Assembly: GCA_903913215.1 (NCBI GenBank)
Contig: CAIWKE010000010.1
Location: forward strand, 1-64,000
Source: an uncultured Holophagaceae bacterium
Lineage (GTDB): Bacteria > Acidobacteriota > Holophagae > Holophagales > Holophagaceae
DNA length: 64,000 nucleotides
Direction of reading: 5' to 3'
The notes beneath the pieces are model-generated. The model was not told the origin of the DNA and made no database searches. It saw only the letters and a program-made list of their open reading frames with translations. Shown in pieces: positions 42,308 to 63,715 of the stretch; the first letter of the stretch is position 1; each line of letters begins with the position of its first letter. Both the position numbers and the translations under genes were made by a program.

Positions 42308-43831
42308 TCACACCGGGGTCACGCTCCGCCGCTTCACGGGCCAGACGTCCCTGCGGCGGGCCCGGCCCAGGCGGGTGCTGAGTTCGCTGCGCAGGTCCGC
42401 CGGATCCACGATGGCGTCCACATGCAGGTCCGCCCCCAGCTTGCGCAGGTCGATATCGGCGTTGTATTCGTCCCGGAGCTGCTGCACGTAGGCGATGCGC
42501 TCTGCCTCGGGCTTGTCCGCGATCTTGTTGGCGAAGACCGCGTTCACGGCGGCCTCAGCCCCCATGACGGCGATGCTGGCCGTGGGCAGGGCCAGGGTGG
42601 CGTCGGGATCGAAGCCCGGCCCACTCATGGCGTAGAGGCCCGCGCCATAGGCCTTCCGCACCACCACACAGAAGCGCGGCGTGGAGCAGGCGGCCATGGC
42701 GCTGATCATCTTGGCGCCATGGCGGATGATGCCCTGCTTCTCCACGGCGCTGCCGATCATGAAGCCGGGCACATCGCTGAGGAAGACCAGGGGGATGCCG
42801 AAGGCGTCGCAGAGGGTGATGAAGCGCGTGGCCTTGTCGGCGCTGTCCACGAAGAGCACGCCGCCCTTCACCCGGGGCTGGTTGGCCAGGATGCCCACAG
42901 GGCGCCCCTCTAGGCGGGCCAGGCCCGTGATGATCTCCCCGGCAAAGAGCTTCTTCACCTCCAGGAAACTGCCCTCGTCCACCAGGCCCTCGATGAAGTC
43001 CTTCATCTGGAAGGGGGCCATGATGTCGGTGGGTACTATGGCTCCCAATGCTTTCGCATTGGGAGTTACCGCCTTCGGCGGGGTCATGGGCAGGGGGGCT
43101 TCGCAGTGCTCCGGGAAGTAGGCAAGATACTGGCGGCATAGTTCGATGGCCTCCTGCTCGGTCTTGCAGAGGAAGTCGCCGCAGCCACTCACGGCGCAGT
43201 GCATGCGGGCGCCGCCCAGGTCCTCCAGGCTGATCTTCTCGCCGATGACCATTTCCGCCATGCGCGGGGAGCCCAGGTACATGCTGGCATTGCCCTCCAC
43301 CATGATCACCACATCGCAGAAGGCGGGGATGTAGGCTCCGCCCGCCGCCGATGGCCCGAAGAGCAGGCAGACCTGGGGCACCAGACCCGAGAGGGCCACC
43401 TCCATGTGGAAAATGGTGCCGGCATGGCGACGCCCCGGGAACATGTCCAGTTGATCCGTGATGCGGGCCCCGGCGCTGTCCACCAGGTAGAGCATGGGCA
43501 CCTTGAGGCGCAGGGCCACCTCCTGGATGCGGATGATCTTCTCCACGGTCCGGGCGCCCCAGCTGCCGGCCTTGATGGTGCTGTCGTTGGCCATGAGGGC
43601 CACCGTGCGGCCGCCCATGGTGGCCGTGCCGGTGATGACGCCATCTGCGGGCAGGTCCTTGTGCAAGGCTTTGGCGAAGAGACCATCCTCGGCAAAGCTG
43701 CCCTCATCCACCAGCAGAGCAATGCGCTCCCGGGCGAAGAGCTTGCCCGCCTCGGCGTTCTTGTCGTGGGCCTTGGGGGCACCGCCCATCTTGATGCGCG
43801 CAACTTCCGCGCGGAAGGCTTCTGGCTGCAT
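42308..43831 (-). CDS. Acyl-CoA carboxylase beta (carboxyltransferase) subunit
   Basis: The 507-residue carboxyltransferase belongs to the propionyl-/methylcrotonyl-CoA carboxylase group. Features: YLVDSAGARITDQLDMFPGR, LFGPSAAGGAYIPAFCD, MYLGSPRMAEMVIGE, and the C-terminal FVDSADKATRFITLCDAFG and YGAGLYAMSG. The acyl-CoA substrate is not certain; no alpha subunit lies beside it, but stand-alone biotinyl carriers lie at 58.5-59 kb and accC at 17 kb. The ATG at 43831 has GAGG upstream; the longer frame to 43936 is spurious. A perfect 10-bp hairpin lies inside the gene (43042-43065). Confidence 0.93.
   Translation of the reverse strand: MQPEAFRAEVARIKMGGAPKAHDKNAEAGKLFARERIALLVDEGSFAEDGLFAKALHKDLPADGVITGTATMGGRTVALMANDSTIKAGSWGARTVEKIIRIQEVALRLKVPMLYLVDSAGARITDQLDMFPGRRHAGTIFHMEVALSGLVPQVCLLFGPSAAGGAYIPAFCDVVIMVEGNASMYLGSPRMAEMVIGEKISLEDLGGARMHCAVSGCGDFLCKTEQEAIELCRQYLAYFPEHCEAPLPMTPPKAVTPNAKALGAIVPTDIMAPFQMKDFIEGLVDEGSFLEVKKLFAGEIITGLARLEGRPVGILANQPRVKGGVLFVDSADKATRFITLCDAFGIPLVFLSDVPGFMIGSAVEKQGIIRHGAKMISAMAACSTPRFCVVVRKAYGAGLYAMSGPGFDPDATLALPTASIAVMGAEAAVNAVFANKIADKPEAERIAYVQQLRDEYNADIDLRKLGADLHVDAIVDPADLRSELSTRLGRARRRDVWPVKRRSVTPV
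43042..43065. repeat. Perfect 10-bp hairpin inside the carboxylase gene
   Basis: CTCCCAATGC (43042-43051) and GCATTGGGAG (43056-43065) flank a TTTC loop. It encodes residues in TPNAKALGA, a spot between the two halves of the enzyme where homologues vary. It may be a coding-tolerated palindromic insertion. Confidence 0.6.
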
Positions 43832-56752: not shown

Positions 56753-57694
56753 CTAATCGTGATGGTGATGCTCATGCCCTTCAGACTCGTGCTCATGCCG
56801 GAACCGGTGCAGGTGCCGCTGGGCCATGGCCGCGGTCTCGAAGTGCAGGGTCAGGTGGCGGACACCGAAGTGGTCCTCCAATAGGTGCTCGATGCGGTGC
56901 TGGTGTGCTTCCGTGTCCTCCAGGCGCTCCGTCTCCACGATGACGTGGGCCGAGCAGACCGTGAGGTGACTGCAGACCCGCCAGGAGCGCAGATCCTCGA
57001 CGCCGAGGATGCCCGGGAGCAGCAGCAGCTGCCGCTTGGCCTCCTCCTGGTCGAAGGCGGCGCGGTGCATGAGGATGTCCAGGGCATCCCGCAGCAGTAG
57101 GAAAGCCCCTCGCAGGATGAGGGCGGCGATGCCCGCCGCCAGCAGTGGGTCCACCCAGTGCCAGCCCGTGAGGCGGATCACCACCATGCCCACCATGACC
57201 GCCACGTTGGCGAGGCTGTCCCCCAGTGCATGGAGGTAGGCGGACCGGAGGTTCAGGTCCCGCTCCTGGCCTCTGCCCTGGGGCACGAGCACGAAGGTGG
57301 CGGCCAGGTTCAGCAAGAGGCCCAGGGCCGAGAAGGCGATGGCCCAGCCCAGCTGGATCTGGTGCGGATGCCGGAGGCGCTGCCAGGCCTCGTAGAGCAC
57401 GGCCCCCGCCAGCACCACCAGCAGGATGACGCCCAGCAGGGTGTTGAAGATCTCGATGCGGTGCCAACCGTAGGTCCAGCGCTCGCAGGGCTCCCGGCGA
57501 TTGGCCAAGCGGATGCCCGCCAGGGCCAGCAGGTTCACCACGGCGTCGTTGAGGTTCTCCAGGCTGTCCGAGACCAGACCCAGGGAGCCGGTCCAGAGCC
57601 CGCCCAGGCCCTGCGCCAGGAAGTTCAGCCCGAAAATAAGCGAGCTGAGGGCCAGGCGGCCGGTGGTGGTGGGACCGTGGGTGTGCGCCATCAT
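56753..57694 (-). CDS. Cation diffusion facilitator (CDF) family transporter
   Basis: The 313-residue protein has six membrane segments and a C-terminal cytoplasmic domain ending in a His-rich tail (HRHEHESEGHEHHHHD). CDF proteins export Zn2+, Co2+, Fe2+ or Mn2+ against proton flow. In the first metal site the usual histidine or aspartate position of the DxxxD motif reads DSLENLND; the second site is HALGDSLAN. Metal specificity is therefore open. Its start overlaps the stop of the enoyl-CoA hydratase gene. Confidence 0.9.
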   Translation of the reverse strand: MMAHTHGPTTTGRLALSSLIFGLNFLAQGLGGLWTGSLGLVSDSLENLNDAVVNLLALAGIRLANRREPCERWTYGWHRIEIFNTLLGVILLVVLAGAVLYEAWQRLRHPHQIQLGWAIAFSALGLLLNLAATFVLVPQGRGQERDLNLRSAYLHALGDSLANVAVMVGMVVIRLTGWHWVDPLLAAGIAALILRGAFLLLRDALDILMHRAAFDQEEAKRQLLLLPGILGVEDLRSWRVCSHLTVCSAHVIVETERLEDTEAHQHRIEHLLEDHFGVRHLTLHFETAAMAQRHLHRFRHEHESEGHEHHHHD

Positions 57695-58476
57695 TCGCCC
57701 CGATACACCGGCTTGCGCTTGTCCCGGAAGGCGGCCAAACCCTCCAGGCGGTCCTTGGTCGGAATCACCTGCCCATAGCAGACTCCCTCCAGGGCCAGAC
57801 CACCAGCCAGGTCCAGCTCCAGACCTTCGTTTACCGCCTGCTTGGCCATGCGCAGGGCGATGGGACCGTTGGGTAGGATCTCCCGAGCCAGGTCCAAGGC
57901 TGCCTTGAGGGCCTGCCCCGCAGGCACCACTCGATTCAGTAAGCCGAGCCGCTCAGCCTCGACGGCATCAATGCGCCGGGCGCTGAAGATCAGCTCCTTG
58001 GCCCGGGCCGGGCCGATGAGCCGGGGGAGACGCTGGGTGCCCCCGGCGCCGGGGATGATGGCCAGCGCCGTCTCCACCAGGCCCATCCTGGCACCGGCCC
58101 CTGCCACCCGCAGGTCCGCCGCCAGGGCCAGCTCCAGACCGCCCCCGAAGGCGGCTCCCTCCAACACGGCCAGCACGGGCATGGGCAGGGCCTCCAGCTC
58201 TGTGAAGGTGGAGCGGATGCCCTGCACGAAGACCTCAGCTTCCGCAGGCGACATGGTGGCCCGCTCCTTCAGGTCAGCCCCGGCGCAGAAGACCCCAGGC
58301 ACCAGACTGTGCACCACCACTACCCGGACCCCAGGGTCCGAACCCAGCTCCGCCAGGGCCTCCCAAAGCTCCGCCAGCAACTGGCGGCCCAGGGCGTTCC
58401 TGGCCTCTGGCCGGTCCAGTCCCACCAGGACGATGCCCTCGTCAGCTCCCGAAAGGCGCTCGACGCGGACTTCCAT
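57691..58476 (-). CDS. Enoyl-CoA hydratase/isomerase family protein
   Basis: The 261-residue crotonase-fold enzyme has LDRPEARNALGRQLLAEL, CAGADLKERATMSP for the first oxyanion contact, and AFGGGLELALAADLRVAG, LVETALAIIPGAGGTQRLPR carrying the catalytic glutamates. It hydrates trans-2-enoyl-CoA, or acts in a related reaction such as methylglutaconyl-CoA hydration. Start overlaps the biotinyl carrier stop by one base (TGATG). Confidence 0.94.
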   Translation of the reverse strand: MEVRVERLSGADEGIVLVGLDRPEARNALGRQLLAELWEALAELGSDPGVRVVVVHSLVPGVFCAGADLKERATMSPAEAEVFVQGIRSTFTELEALPMPVLAVLEGAAFGGGLELALAADLRVAGAGARMGLVETALAIIPGAGGTQRLPRLIGPARAKELIFSARRIDAVEAERLGLLNRVVPAGQALKAALDLAREILPNGPIALRMAKQAVNEGLELDLAGGLALEGVCYGQVIPTKDRLEGLAAFRDKRKPVYRGE

Positions 58477-58688
58477 CAGGACAGCTCCACGATGGCATCC
58501 CCTTCATTCAGGAACTGCTCAGCGGCCACGAATACTTTTCGGACCGTGCCGCCCTGGGGGGCGCCCACGGGGATCTGCATCTTCATCGAATCGACGATGA
58601 TCAGGTCCTGTTCCTCAGCCACGATCTGGCCCTCGGTGACGCAGACCTCCAGCACTTTCCCGGCCATCTCCGCCTTCACCACTGCCAT
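58476..58688 (-). CDS. Stand-alone biotinyl/lipoyl carrier protein
   Basis: The 70-residue protein consists of just one biotinyl-domain fold: AEMAGKVLEVCVTEGQIV, the attachment lysine in VDSMKMQIP, and GTVRKVFVAAEQFLNEGDAI. It would be biotinylated and serve an acyl-CoA carboxylase such as the beta subunit at 42.3-43.8 kb. The ATG at 58688 follows GAGGTGG; the longer frame is spurious. Enoyl-CoA hydratase is coupled downstream. Confidence 0.9.
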   Translation of the reverse strand: MAVVKAEMAGKVLEVCVTEGQIVAEEQDLIIVDSMKMQIPVGAPQGGTVRKVFVAAEQFLNEGDAIVELS

Positions 58689-58743: not shown

Positions 58744-58980
58744 CTACTCGTCCCGGTCAGAGTCCCCGATGACCACCAAATCGTCATCCTCGTAGGCGAA
58801 GTCGCCCTCCTCGATGAGGATCTCCCGCACCTTGCCGCCTTCCGGGGCGTTGATATAGAAGGAGGTGCGGGAGGCGTCCGTGCCCTCGATGATGATCAGG
58901 GGCTCGTCCTCTTCCACTTCCTGGCCGGGGCGGACCAGAACGTCCACCACGTAACCCGGCCATTCCGCCCGCACAATCAT
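58744..58980 (-). CDS. Biotinyl/lipoyl-like domain protein lacking the modified lysine
   Basis: The 78-residue protein has the biotinyl/lipoyl half-repeat pattern (VRPGQEVEEDEPLIIIEG ... GGKVREILIEEGDFAYEDDD) but the hairpin turn where EAMKM-like Lys should stand reads IEGTDASRTSFYIN, with no lysine. It therefore cannot carry biotin or lipoate in the normal way. It is 55 bases upstream of the normal carrier gene in the same operon. Confidence 0.85.
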   Translation of the reverse strand: MIVRAEWPGYVVDVLVRPGQEVEEDEPLIIIEGTDASRTSFYINAPEGGKVREILIEEGDFAYEDDDLVVIGDSDRDE

Positions 58981-59109: not shown

Positions 59110-60210
59110 ATGGCTGTCGCCTGTGGCATCGTGGGTCTCCCCAACGTGGGAAAGTCCACCCTTTTCAACGCTCTCACCCGCGCTGGGGCGGCTTCGGCCA
59201 ACTACCCCTTCTGCACCATCGAGCCCAATACAGGGGTCGTGGACGTGCCAGATCCCCGTCTGGCGGCCCTGGCGGCCATCGTGAACCCCCAGCGGGTCCT
59301 GCCCGCCGCCCAGGAATTTGTGGACATCGCCGGCCTGGTGCGGGGCGCCAGCAAGGGGGAGGGACTGGGCAATGCCTTCCTGGGCCACATCCGGGAGACG
59401 GATGCCATCGTCCAGGTGGTGCGCTGCTTCGAGGATGACAACGTCACCCACGTCGAGGGTGGCGTGCATCCTGAGCGGGACCTGAGCATCATCGAGACGG
59501 AACTGGTCATCAAGGACCTGGATGGCATCGAGAAGGGCCTGGATCGGCACCGGAAGATCGCCAAGACCGGCAACAAGGAGTCCATCGCCCTGGTGGCCGT
59601 GCTGGAGCGCCTCTTCGCGGCCCTGAACGAGGGCAAGTGGGCCAGCACCGCTGGCCTCTCCGTCGAGGACAAGGCCCTGGTGAAGTCCTACGGCCTGCTC
59701 ACCCTGAAGCCCACCCTCTTCGTGGGCAACATCGGGGAAGAAGATATCCGGAACCCCGAGGGCAATCCCCACTACGTAAAGCTGATGGCCCTGGCCGCCG
59801 AACGCCACGCGCCCTGCATCCCCATCTGCTCGAAGCTGGAGGCCGAAATCCAGGATCTGCCTGAGGAGGACCGCCCCCTCTTCCTGGAAGAGGCGGGCCT
59901 GACCGAGCCGGGCCTGAACGTGCTCATCCACGCCAGCTACGACCTGCTGGGCCTTCAGACCTACTTCACCGCTGGGGTGAAGGAAGTGCGCGCCTGGACC
60001 ATCCACAAGGGCGACACGGCGCCCCAGGCGGCGGGCGTCATCCACACGGATTTTGAGAAGGGCTTCATCCGGGCCCAGGTCATCGCCTACGAGGACTTCC
60101 TCGCCTGCAAGGGTGAGCAGGGCGCCAAGGATGCCGGGAAGATGCGGACCGAAGGCAAGGAATACATTGTCAAAGACGGGGATCTCATGAACTTCCTCTT
60201 CAACGTGTAG
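59110..60210 (+). CDS. ychF: Redox-regulated ATPase YchF
   Basis: The 366-residue Obg-family P-loop protein binds ATP rather than GTP and associates with ribosomes. G1 is [42 protein letters not shown] and the ATP-specifying NIGEED (NxxE-type) follow, ending with the TGS-like domain [18 protein letters not shown]. The frame extends to 59008, but GGAGGTTGGA precedes the ATG at 59110. It is divergent from the carrier operon. Confidence 0.96.
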
Positions 60211-60305: not shown

Positions 60306-61559
60306 ATGGAACCTGGGAAGGGGAACGGGGGAGGAGGACGGGGTGCACCCGTCGAGGACCTCGTGCTCATCCGCCAGGCCATGGAAGACCTCCAGCGGGG
60401 GGAGATCGAGTTCCCCATCAAGGTGGAGGGCACCCACACCCTGCCCTACACCTCCCACATCCAGCTCCTGGACCTGGCCAAGGGCATCGCCCACCTGAAG
60501 CTCATCCGCCCCCTGCCGCATGAAATGGTCGTGGGTGCTTCCTTCGAGATGCTCTTCTCCCTGGGCGACCAGCGCTACGAGGCTCCCACCACCTTCCTGG
60601 GCCGCGAGTCCTACCTGCTCTACCGGTTCACGGTGCCCACGCGGATGGTGCCCTGCGACCGGCGCCGCAACAAGCGCTACCCCTTCCGGCCCCGGGAGAA
60701 GGCCTATGTGTTGGCCCAGGATGGCGGCGTCCCGGGCCACGGCCTGGCTGGCCCCCTGGTGAACCTCTCCCTGGGGGGCCTAGCCTTCCGCGTGGACCGG
60801 ATCCTCCAGCTGGGGGACCAACTGCGCATCACGCCCGGCCTGGGCTTCTTCGACAAGGGGAAGGAACTCCCCATGCTCAAGATCCGGGACCTCCCCAAGG
60901 TGCCCCTCTTCGAAGTGCGGGGCACCGTGGCCAATGCCTGGGAACGGGGCGGCGAGATCATCGTCGGCGTCAAGTTCCCCGAGCTCAAGGACGCGGAGCT
61001 GAAAGTCCTCCAGGACGTCCTCACCATCCGGGAGCAGATGCAGCGGGCCAGCGTGGCTGGAGCCACCCCAGGCCCCACGGTCCGGGAACCCCGCGCCGCC
61101 GCCCGACCCGAAGAGACCAACAGCCCCACCCGCCGCCTCAACCCCGCCGGTGCCAGGACGCCCGATGCCCTCACCCGCCTGGGGCGCCGCTGCACCCTGG
61201 TGGTGCTGGCCATGGCTCCCGGGGCTCCCCGAGAGTTGGTGCGCCAGGCCCTCTGGGATCAGGGCTACCTCCGTGTAGAGGCCGTGGATGCCCTGGAGCA
61301 AGTCCAGGGGCGCTTCCATGAGGAGGTCGTCACTAGCCGCCTGCTCATGCTGGAGGCCCCCGCCGGGAGCGAGGCCCCCATGACCCTCATCCGCAGCCTG
61401 CAGGATGGCCTAGGAGAGTTCCAGGAACTGCCCGTGGCCCTGATCGCCCCCGGAGGCCAGCCCCCGGAGACCGACGATCCCCTGGTCCGCCCCCTGCCCT
61501 GGCCCACCACCGATCCCTCGACCTGGCTGCCCATCCTGGACGAGCTGAGCGGCCTTTAG
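60306..61559 (+). CDS. PilZ domain protein with YcgR-like N terminus and receiver-like C terminus
   Basis: The 417-residue protein has an N-terminal YcgR-like beta domain (about 18-110), a PilZ domain (about 118-235; RRRNKRYPFR with the c-di-GMP-binding arginines and NLSLGGLAF) and a C-terminal domain (about 295-410; TLVVLAMAPGAPRELVRQAL) reminiscent of a degenerate receiver fold without the phospho-acceptor. It is predicted to be a cyclic-di-GMP effector. GAGGAG is 9 bases before the ATG. Its stop overlaps that of the convergent kinase gene. Confidence 0.85.
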   Translation: MEPGKGNGGGGRGAPVEDLVLIRQAMEDLQRGEIEFPIKVEGTHTLPYTSHIQLLDLAKGIAHLKLIRPLPHEMVVGASFEMLFSLGDQRYEAPTTFLGRESYLLYRFTVPTRMVPCDRRRNKRYPFRPREKAYVLAQDGGVPGHGLAGPLVNLSLGGLAFRVDRILQLGDQLRITPGLGFFDKGKELPMLKIRDLPKVPLFEVRGTVANAWERGGEIIVGVKFPELKDAELKVLQDVLTIREQMQRASVAGATPGPTVREPRAAARPEETNSPTRRLNPAGARTPDALTRLGRRCTLVVLAMAPGAPRELVRQALWDQGYLRVEAVDALEQVQGRFHEEVVTSRLLMLEAPAGSEAPMTLIRSLQDGLGEFQELPVALIAPGGQPPETDDPLVRPLPWPTTDPSTWLPILDELSGL

Positions 61560-63715
61560 ACAGGGGTCACTTTCACCAGCTGCCCCATCGCATCCACGCG
61601 GTGGATATCGTCCTCGAGCCGCTGGCCACGCACCACCGGATCCGCCGCGTCGCGGGCCAGGAGAACGCCACCCCGGGCATTCCGGTGCATCACGCACTCC
61701 TCCAGCGTGGCCTGGGAGTCCTCCAGCAGCAGCAGGCCCGTATCGCGGCCGTCCTTGAGGGTACAGCGCACCAGCAGGAGGCTGCCGCCGGGCTCCACCT
61801 GGGCACCGGCACCGGCATTGCCCGACAGCTCGCAGCCATCCAATACGCCCTGACCGCCCTCGGCGCAGTCCACGCCCATGGCCAAGCCTTCACTGAAGGT
61901 ACAGCTCCGGGCCTGCACCGTGGCACCGTGGTTGATGAGCAGTCCCGCGCCGCCATTGCCCTGGACCGTGCAGCCGTCGAGGGTGGCCAGGCCCCGGTCC
62001 ATGACCGAGATCCCGAACCCAGGGTTACCCTCCAGTCGGCACTGCCGGAGCATGACATTGGCCCCCGCCAGCACGTGAGCCCCCGAGCAGGTGTGGTTGC
62101 CCAGCACGCAGGCATCCAGCACCGCATGGCTCCGCTCCAGGGCCAGCAGACCCGCGAAGTGGCTGCTCATGAGGCGGCTGCGGGTGAGGTGGACCCGCCC
62201 TTCGGGCTCGATCTCGACACTGCCCGCCAGGGTCAGGAAGCCACAGGTATCTGCTGTGGCCTGGGCCCGGGCGCCCACCTTCAGGCCCACCCCGTCCCCG
62301 GGGCCGAATTCCACGCCCTGCAGGGTGGCTTGAGCTCCGGCCTCCAGGCGGAGGCCGCATTCACGGAAGCCCCGCAAGGAGCCACCAACCAGGTTCACCT
62401 GGGCCCCCCCGGCCACCACCAGGGCCTCGGCCCCACCCGTGAGCAGCTGGCAGTCCTGGAAGCGGGGCGAGGCGCCACTGGCCACCTCCACGCCCCCCAC
62501 CAGCACACAGCTTTCCAGCCGGGGCGTGCCGCCGGTGATGCGCAGCACCGCGCCCTCCTCTGCCACGCGGAGGGTGAGGTTGCGCAGCACCAGATCCCGG
62601 CCGCCCGAGATGAGGGTGGGGGCCTTCAGGCTCTCCAGGACCACCTCGCCGACCTCGCCCAGACCCGTGATGGTCACATCCTTGTCCAGCACCACGGCTT
62701 CGCGGTAGAGCCCCGGCAGCAGGGTGATCTCGGCGCCGGCCCGCGCCTGGCGCAGGGCCACTTTGAGGCTCAGGCACTGGCCCTGCCCCCCCTTGCCCAC
62801 GCGGATCTGCTGGCCAGCGCTGTCGGCATCCAGGCGGGCGGCCACCAGGGGCGGAGCCAGGATGGTGCCCGCGGAGGCTGGCACGCCCTCCCGGGTACCG
62901 GCGGCGGCATCCCGGATGGCCTGCCCCAGCTCCTCGGCGTCCGCGAATCGGTCCTCGGGCCGCTTTGCCAGGGCCCGCTCCGCTACGGCCAGCAACTGAC
63001 CGGAAATGTCCTTCAGCTCTGCCATCCGGATGGGCTCCGGCGGATGCAGCAGGATGCGGTTCAGCACCGCCGTGGTGGTGTCGCCGCTGAAGGGCTTACG
63101 GCCCCCGGTGAGGATCTCGTAGAGCATCACGCCGAGAGCGAAGATGTCGGAGCTGGTCGAGGACTTCCCCGAATCCAGGTACTCGGGGGCCATGTAGCTC
63201 ACCGTGCCCATCCAGGTGCCGGTCTGGGTGAGGCCCGAGGGGCCCATTTGCGCCACCCCGAAGTCCATGAGCTTGGCGTGCACCTTCCGCCCGTGCCGAG
63301 TGACCAGGACGTTGGCGGGCTTGATGTCCCGGTGGATGACGCCCCGCTGGTGAGCGTAAGCCAGGCCGTCGCAGACCTGGGCCAGGGCCTCCAGCAGGTC
63401 CGCCTTGGGAGTGGTTCCGCTACGGATGAGGACATCCAAGTCCTCGCCCTCCACATACTCCATGGCCAGGTAGTGCAGGCCCTCGTCATCACCGAACTCG
63501 AAGACTGTGACGATGTGCGGATGGTTGAGCATGGCCGCCGCACGGGCCTCCCGCTCGAAGCGGGCCTGAGCCTCGGCGCCGAAGGCCGAGCCCGCGGAGA
63601 TCACCTTGAGGGCCACCTCCCGCCCCAGCTTGGGATCCCGCCCCAGGTAGACCACGCCCATGGAGCCCCTGCCCAGGAGCCGGACGATCTCGAATTTTCC
63701 TAAACGATCCTGCAT
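61556..63715 (-). CDS. Serine/threonine kinase fused to a right-handed beta-helix
   Basis: The 719-residue protein has an N-terminal Hanks-type kinase (about 8-265; LGRGSMGVVYLG, catalytic Lys37 in VALKVI, HRDIKPANVL at 128-137, DFG at 151-153, APE-type MAPEYLD) with all main catalytic residues. The C terminus (about 330-700) is a string of short beta-helix coils of the pectate-lyase/parallel-helix type (LDGCTVQGNGGAGLLINHG, LDGCELSGNAGAGAQVEPGG). No transmembrane segment or signal peptide is apparent. Kinase-beta-helix fusion is unusual; the helix may be a substrate or ligand platform. Confidence 0.9.
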   Translation of the reverse strand: MQDRLGKFEIVRLLGRGSMGVVYLGRDPKLGREVALKVISAGSAFGAEAQARFEREARAAAMLNHPHIVTVFEFGDDEGLHYLAMEYVEGEDLDVLIRSGTTPKADLLEALAQVCDGLAYAHQRGVIHRDIKPANVLVTRHGRKVHAKLMDFGVAQMGPSGLTQTGTWMGTVSYMAPEYLDSGKSSTSSDIFALGVMLYEILTGGRKPFSGDTTTAVLNRILLHPPEPIRMAELKDISGQLLAVAERALAKRPEDRFADAEELGQAIRDAAAGTREGVPASAGTILAPPLVAARLDADSAGQQIRVGKGGQGQCLSLKVALRQARAGAEITLLPGLYREAVVLDKDVTITGLGEVGEVVLESLKAPTLISGGRDLVLRNLTLRVAEEGAVLRITGGTPRLESCVLVGGVEVASGASPRFQDCQLLTGGAEALVVAGGAQVNLVGGSLRGFRECGLRLEAGAQATLQGVEFGPGDGVGLKVGARAQATADTCGFLTLAGSVEIEPEGRVHLTRSRLMSSHFAGLLALERSHAVLDACVLGNHTCSGAHVLAGANVMLRQCRLEGNPGFGISVMDRGLATLDGCTVQGNGGAGLLINHGATVQARSCTFSEGLAMGVDCAEGGQGVLDGCELSGNAGAGAQVEPGGSLLLVRCTLKDGRDTGLLLLEDSQATLEECVMHRNARGGVLLARDAADPVVRGQRLEDDIHRVDAMGQLVKVTPV

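Follow-up and report, generated by a model that had tools for sequence, protein, structure and literature searches.

A gene in the window (the whole stretch of DNA that was analysed, 64,000 nucleotides long) encodes a 78-residue protein of the biotinyl family that lacks the modification lysine and is kept nearly unchanged across the window's family, even beside decayed copies of the biotin carrier that adjoins it here. This protein, which we call the look-alike, probably has a job of its own. In our preferred reading, to which we give a probability of roughly 40%, it mimics a carrier, being very acidic and non-catalytic, and acts on a biotin component shared by these genomes; a job that has nothing to do with biotin is almost as probable. 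The features discussed are listed in Table 1.

Table 1. Positions of the features discussed, in the window or, where a locus number (L) is given, in loci of related genomes.
Feature	Position	Strand	Remarks
Lysine-less biotinyl-domain protein (look-alike)	58744..58980	-	78 aa; predicted structure m1121c8ff3304
Loop replacing the E-[A/S]-M-K-M site	58855..58887	-	EGTDASRTSFY, codons of residues 32-42; from alignment with the carrier
Live biotin carrier, VDSMKM	58476..58688	-	70 aa; downstream of the look-alike
Enoyl-CoA hydratase	57691..58476	-	closest to PRK07657; start overlaps carrier stop
Membrane protein, cation-efflux-like	56753..57694	-	named by reading of the sequence
YchF ATPase	59110..60210	+	divergent neighbour; Geothrix-type arrangement
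Carboxyltransferase (42-kb gene)	42308..43831	-	Carboxyl_trans, E 5.9e-144
Fused biotin carboxylase-carrier chains, carrier-less Geothrix	L191:4411-6669, L192:6316-8412, L203:1057-3153, L205:2999-5095		
G051 multidomain chains	L193:2838-8519, L194:2050-5577		1,893 aa and 1,175 aa, respectively
Decayed carrier frames	L013:6279-6386, L022:6479-6586, L023:6480-6587, L037:6279-6386, L020 from 6275		
Hairpin element, examples	L224, L229, L242, L219, L031:6496-6668		hairpin at 1501 in each of the first three; L219 from G000:C39:18000-20500

The look-alike and its conservation

The open reading frame of the look-alike is intact and starts with ATG, and AAGGGGGGA lies directly 5' of it on the same strand. 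The product scores 39.4 bits against the Pfam Biotin_lipoyl model (PF00364), for which the curated cut-off is 22.1, and all 20 members scanned match the same model (E up to 0.01). It also matches HlyD_3 marginally above the cut-off and HlyD_D23 below it, and obtains 33 bits with the PRK08225 model, compared with 75 bits for the neighbouring carrier. The hairpin reads IEGTDASRTSFYINAPE; the only lysine in the protein, residue 50, is located past it, in agreement with the initial annotation, which had described a biotinyl-family protein without its modification lysine. Aligned with the carrier, the lysine-free loop is three residues longer, and its consensus across look-alikes is EGTDxx[R/H]TxFY. 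The window's protein contains 22 acidic and 6 basic residues, and net charges range from -15 to -19 across 53 distinct look-alikes, against -6 for the window's carrier.

Structure prediction with AlphaFold2 from an alignment of orthologues only was poor (pLDDT 63.2). With carriers in the alignment the best model reached a pLDDT of 86.4, the remaining four staying at 68-73; the best model thus leans on the carriers. The look-alike is predicted to adopt the barrel-sandwich biotinyl fold, the model matching 5gu8 first (TM 0.84), with biotinyl domains of biotin enzymes leading the matches. By sequence, the single best match in solved structures is a lipoyl protein, 7b9k, with its three domains summed; biotinyl domains come next and make up most of the matches listed. 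In a tree, the look-alike groups with the window-type carrier with weak support (64/62), a placement consistent with descent from the neighbouring carrier's lineage. Our best guess is that it belongs to the stand-alone biotin carriers, as an old member that cannot be modified.

Orthologues are present in 72 of the 77 genomes of the window's GTDB family (Geothrix relatives), in 11 of its 11 genera and in all 48 near-complete genomes; the five genomes without one (G025, G058, G067, G068 and G076) are each less than 90% complete. When species genomes were scanned, 48 of the 49 loci obtained held lysine-less orthologues, so the objection that the lysine was lost through a sequencing error fails. 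The remaining locus (L054) encodes an ordinary carrier with AMK and was excluded from the set of 53 distinct sequences. The biotinylation motif [A/S]MK[M/L/V] occurs in none of these 53, which sets them apart from biotin carboxyl carriers. Residues 27-46 contain no lysine in 50 of them, and the other three, from the small-genome genus g2, have ENKSMEG in this region, which is not a biotin site. Lengths, taken from the start codon closest to the alignment, range from 75 to 80 residues.

Purifying selection on the look-alike is strong, with a mean pN of 0.030, a pS of 0.40 and a dN/dS of 0.057 (45 pairs from 10 Geothrix-type loci). For the 28 pairs in which both genes could be compared, pN is 0.0315 for the look-alike and 0.0819 for the live carrier.

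Across the phylum, sampled with 396 genomes, orthologues are confined to family f1, where they score 107-144 bits. Matches were obtained in 26 genomes outside f1, the best at 53 bits, and none is an orthologue; within this sample, a widespread bacterial family is thereby rejected. In 19 of the 26 the open frame is 135-213 residues long, and we read these frames, as a group rather than singly, as AccB-type proteins. Inspection of the single short frame outside f1 (G213, 78 residues) showed an ordinary carrier with AMKM. Two other families of the same class were represented by eight genomes, of which two have a match, at 43-46 bits and with frames of 177-180 residues, and six have none. As far as this sample shows, the look-alike is a family-level invention.

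The neighbouring carrier, its enzyme and the loci

The next gene downstream had been described as a complete stand-alone carrier with VDSMKM, and so it is. It scores below the curated cut-offs of the stand-alone carrier families (75 bits for PRK08225, cut-off 95). A live carrier adjoins the look-alike in 46 of the 77 family genomes and is decayed or was not found in the others. Every window-type carrier in the family adjoins a look-alike (46/46, one of them, in G015, truncated by a contig end). Left out of this count were fragments (a continuation on another contig's end in G055, one in G015 and the 3'-half copies described below) and matches fitting other, mostly larger carrier proteins (in G044, G060, G062, G064, G072 and G073).

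The converse does not hold, since in 17 of the 48 near-complete genomes the look-alike is present but a window-type carrier is not. In the Geothrix-type loci L013, L020, L022, L023, L037 and L044 the carrier slot is occupied by an open frame of about 35 codons next to an intact look-alike. The decayed frames have kept both ends of the carrier and lost its lysine-bearing core by internal deletion, L020 being the most diverged. Those of L013, L020, L022, L023 and L037 end in TGATG, the site of the hydratase start, and the remnant is perhaps kept for coupled translation with the hydratase. The carrier-less genomes and the decay beside intact look-alikes rule out an obligate pair. Of the two properties to be checked in homologues, the lysine loss is conserved; the position beside a carrier gene is not constant.

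In the window, 15 kb separate the live carrier from the 42-kb carboxyltransferase. A direct search of 21 near-complete genomes, picked by us, found orthologues of this enzyme, 76-100% identical, in eight of eight carrier-bearing genomes and in none of 13 carrier-less ones, where the best match is at most 41% identical or absent; the lower-scoring carboxyltransferases of G009 and G041, only 37-40% identical, were dismissed as orthologues. This co-occurrence makes it most likely that the carrier belongs to that enzyme, and the 13 carrier-less genomes rule out that the look-alike depends on it. The pairing proposed in the initial annotation thus stands on the carrier's side, as the carrier always adjoins a look-alike and goes with the 42-kb carboxyltransferase; the look-alike is tied to neither.

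A biotin carboxylase domain is present in all 48 near-complete family genomes (15/15 and 33/33). Nine carrier-less Geothrix genomes were checked for fused subunits, leaving out G025, which has no look-alike, and G026, in which a contig ends beside it. Seven of them (G009, G017, G040, G041, G042, G046 and G048) have three biotin carboxylases each, one of which is in a chain with its own carrier domain; G039 has two, both unfused, and G044 has two, one unfused and the other truncated by a contig end. Carrier-bearing Geothrix genomes, 24 in number, mostly have exactly two biotin carboxylase domains (22 genomes); a further genome has a single domain, and the last has three, of which the third is part of a pyruvate-carboxylase-like chain. 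In carrier-less Geothrix, the fused chains apparently stand in for the stand-alone carrier's enzyme. Most simply read, this enzyme was often swapped for the fused type and the carrier then decayed, leaving the look-alike unaffected. In G051, the biotin carboxylase domains found are only in a multidomain chain and a pyruvate-carboxylase-like chain (1,893 and 1,175 residues, in that order), the longer of which also contains the only carboxyltransferase domain matched. The look-alike is intact in this genome, and docking of a free carrier is therefore not its general role.

A biotin ligase domain (PF03099) gave one match in each of the 15 near-complete genomes tested. In G000, the longest ligase frame with a usual start codon has 223 residues. 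A ligase that includes a DNA-binding domain would be expected to be longer, so biotin control by that route may be absent. From these counts, the carboxylase and the ligase are both possible constant partners of the look-alike. As both are near-universal in the genomes tested, their co-occurrence with it discriminates little.

The order look-alike, carrier, hydratase is common to genera g1, g2, g4, g5 and g6. In the majority of the Geothrix loci read, the hydratase is followed by the cation-efflux-like gene, which in L046 and L049 comes directly after the look-alike. A dihydroorotase gene follows the look-alike, directly or a few genes on, in loci of g3, g7, g9 and g10 and in L093 (g11), and in most of these the look-alike is divergent from PNPase. 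In L047, L048, L053, L087, L088, L089 and L090 the look-alike lies 28-61 bases upstream of dihydroorotase; on the opposite side, in all except L088, a divergent PNPase was called. The names of these dihydroorotase, PNPase and cation-efflux-like neighbours were assigned by reading the sequences. The arrangement with dihydroorotase is possibly the older one. Because the neighbours differ among genera (carrier and hydratase, cation-efflux-like gene, dihydroorotase), no consistent pathway is indicated. Elsewhere in the window, positions 61556-63715 of the reverse strand encode a protein of 719 residues which, judged by eye, has a Ser/Thr protein kinase ahead of parallel beta-helix-like repeats.

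As a separate observation, a dispersed hairpin element of the approximate form CTCGCGTATC-stem-loop-stem-GATACCGAGA, with compensatory changes in the stem, is often found directly 5' of a near-copy of the sequence immediately upstream of it, such as the 3' half of the biotin carrier or other gene ends. The window contains none, in a search allowing at most one mismatch in the left arm. Exact sites number 23, in seven of the ten genomes searched (27 sites, 17 of them with copies, became 23 and 13 once four duplicates were removed). A near-copy follows 13 of the 23 sites, and four of the 13 form two pairs of neighbouring elements; at random positions in these loci the figure was 6 of 115. The hairpin looks like a putative mobile element of very small size, whose target duplications are long and vary. 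The 3'-half copies were dismissed as a carrier-specific feature, since copies follow the dispersed element.

Related proteins

Among the literature matches listed, and as far as the excerpts of the source go, plant BADC is the described unmodifiable biotinyl-domain protein with an independent life. In these excerpts (PMC11926652), BADCs are BCCP relatives without the AMKL biotinylation motif that act in heteromeric acetyl-CoA carboxylase; they are kept beside true BCCPs and are reported to be non-catalytic assembly partners or inhibitors, glue or brake being debated. The same excerpts present them as plastid proteins unique to the plant enzyme, report interaction with the thumb and the N-terminal region of BCCP and give the span of a BADC3 construct (A55-Q263) (PMC11926652). 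The statement in the initial annotation that no system of this kind had been described was, on this account, too strong. No bacterial counterpart of the look-alike is among the matches listed in the open-access PMC literature.

Set against the excerpted description of BADC, the bacterial protein is likewise BCCP-like and without the biotinylation motif, and the two may in principle be comparable. Unlike the longer plant proteins, it consists of one domain, with no long extra region, and it occurs without an adjacent carrier. The link of BADC to a heteromeric acetyl-CoA carboxylase was not found for the look-alike of G051, where carboxylase domains were found only in multidomain chains.

Bacillus subtilis BLAP (1z6h) and the PRK08225 carriers, of about 70 residues, are single-domain proteins like the look-alike, and 1z6h is among its fold matches (TM 0.80). 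BLAP is biotinylated in the solved form, whereas the look-alike lacks that lysine and has the longer loop (by three residues). Actinobacterial acyl-CoA carboxylases are described in excerpts as biotin enzymes with a small subunit that is non-catalytic (PMC7835884, PMC13118682). The likeness to these subunits is one of description. They are not known to have a biotinyl fold. HlyD/RND adaptors contain biotinyl-like barrel-sandwich domains related to the look-alike. Those domains are lysine-free parts of larger exported membrane-fusion proteins, unlike the look-alike, which stands alone with its 78 residues.

Candidate roles and their meaning

In the preferred reading, the look-alike would bind at the carrier's place on a component common to all these genomes. 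This component would be the biotin carboxylase domain, whether on its own or within a fused chain; the biotin ligase is a less likely candidate. The bound look-alike would steady, cap or tune its partner, taking no biotin itself. We infer both this partner and the regulatory or assembly role. A carrier mimic is favoured because of the Biotin_lipoyl membership, the matches to biotinyl folds, the strong constraint, the retention in 48 of 48 near-complete genomes, the adjacency of all 46 live carriers and the precedent of BADC. It is possible, if doubtful, that the look-alike is a core regulatory protein, a BADC-like pseudo-carrier of independent bacterial origin, whose target across all carboxylases is the biotin carboxylase domain or the ligase and which outlives the true carrier.

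The strongest competitor, only slightly less probable than the carrier mimic, is that the fold has been re-used outside biotin metabolism, as a small acidic barrel-sandwich adaptor for a core process, with the operon neighbours incidental. The look-alike is kept under any set of carboxylases and its neighbours vary from YchF to PNPase, dihydroorotase and the cation-efflux-like gene, as this would lead one to expect. Its conservation also equals that of a core-gene neighbour (90% identity between the window and L031, against 91.3% for YchF), and its acidity is far from that of the carrier. However, the adjacency of 46 of 46 live carriers is hardly incidental, and the closest matches of the look-alike, in sequence and in fold, are biotin and lipoyl carriers.

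An unlikely alternative makes the look-alike a decoy or sensor of the biotin ligase, filling the ligase's carrier site and so setting the rate at which the carrier is biotinylated. The single ligase match in each genome tested and the 223-residue ligase frame of G000, with which control through a DNA-binding domain may be missing, would suit such a role. The hairpin, which is what the ligase reads in normal carriers, is however the most altered part of the look-alike, and the clustered neighbours in the loci read include no gene recognised as a ligase.

The initial annotation had suggested a dummy or docking subunit, here taken as one dedicated to the adjacent carrier and the 42-kb carboxyltransferase. 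The common gene order of look-alike, carrier and hydratase in five genera and the co-occurrence of carrier and carboxyltransferase (8/8 against 0/13) fit this proposal. As a general role it is contradicted by the 17 of 48 near-complete genomes that keep the look-alike without the carrier, by the lack of a carboxyltransferase orthologue in all 13 carrier-less genomes tested and by carriers decayed next to an intact look-alike, and we consider it very improbable. A decaying duplicate, a recent pseudogene or a sequencing error, for which nothing but the lost lysine speaks, is refuted by orthologues in 72 of 77 genomes and a dN/dS of about 0.06.

The look-alike offers a small system in which these roles can be tested, with a protein of 78 residues, cultured Geothrix hosts and genomes that lack both the carrier and its carboxyltransferase. 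It would show how a carrier mimic acts on biotin enzymes, or else reveal a new use of the fold.
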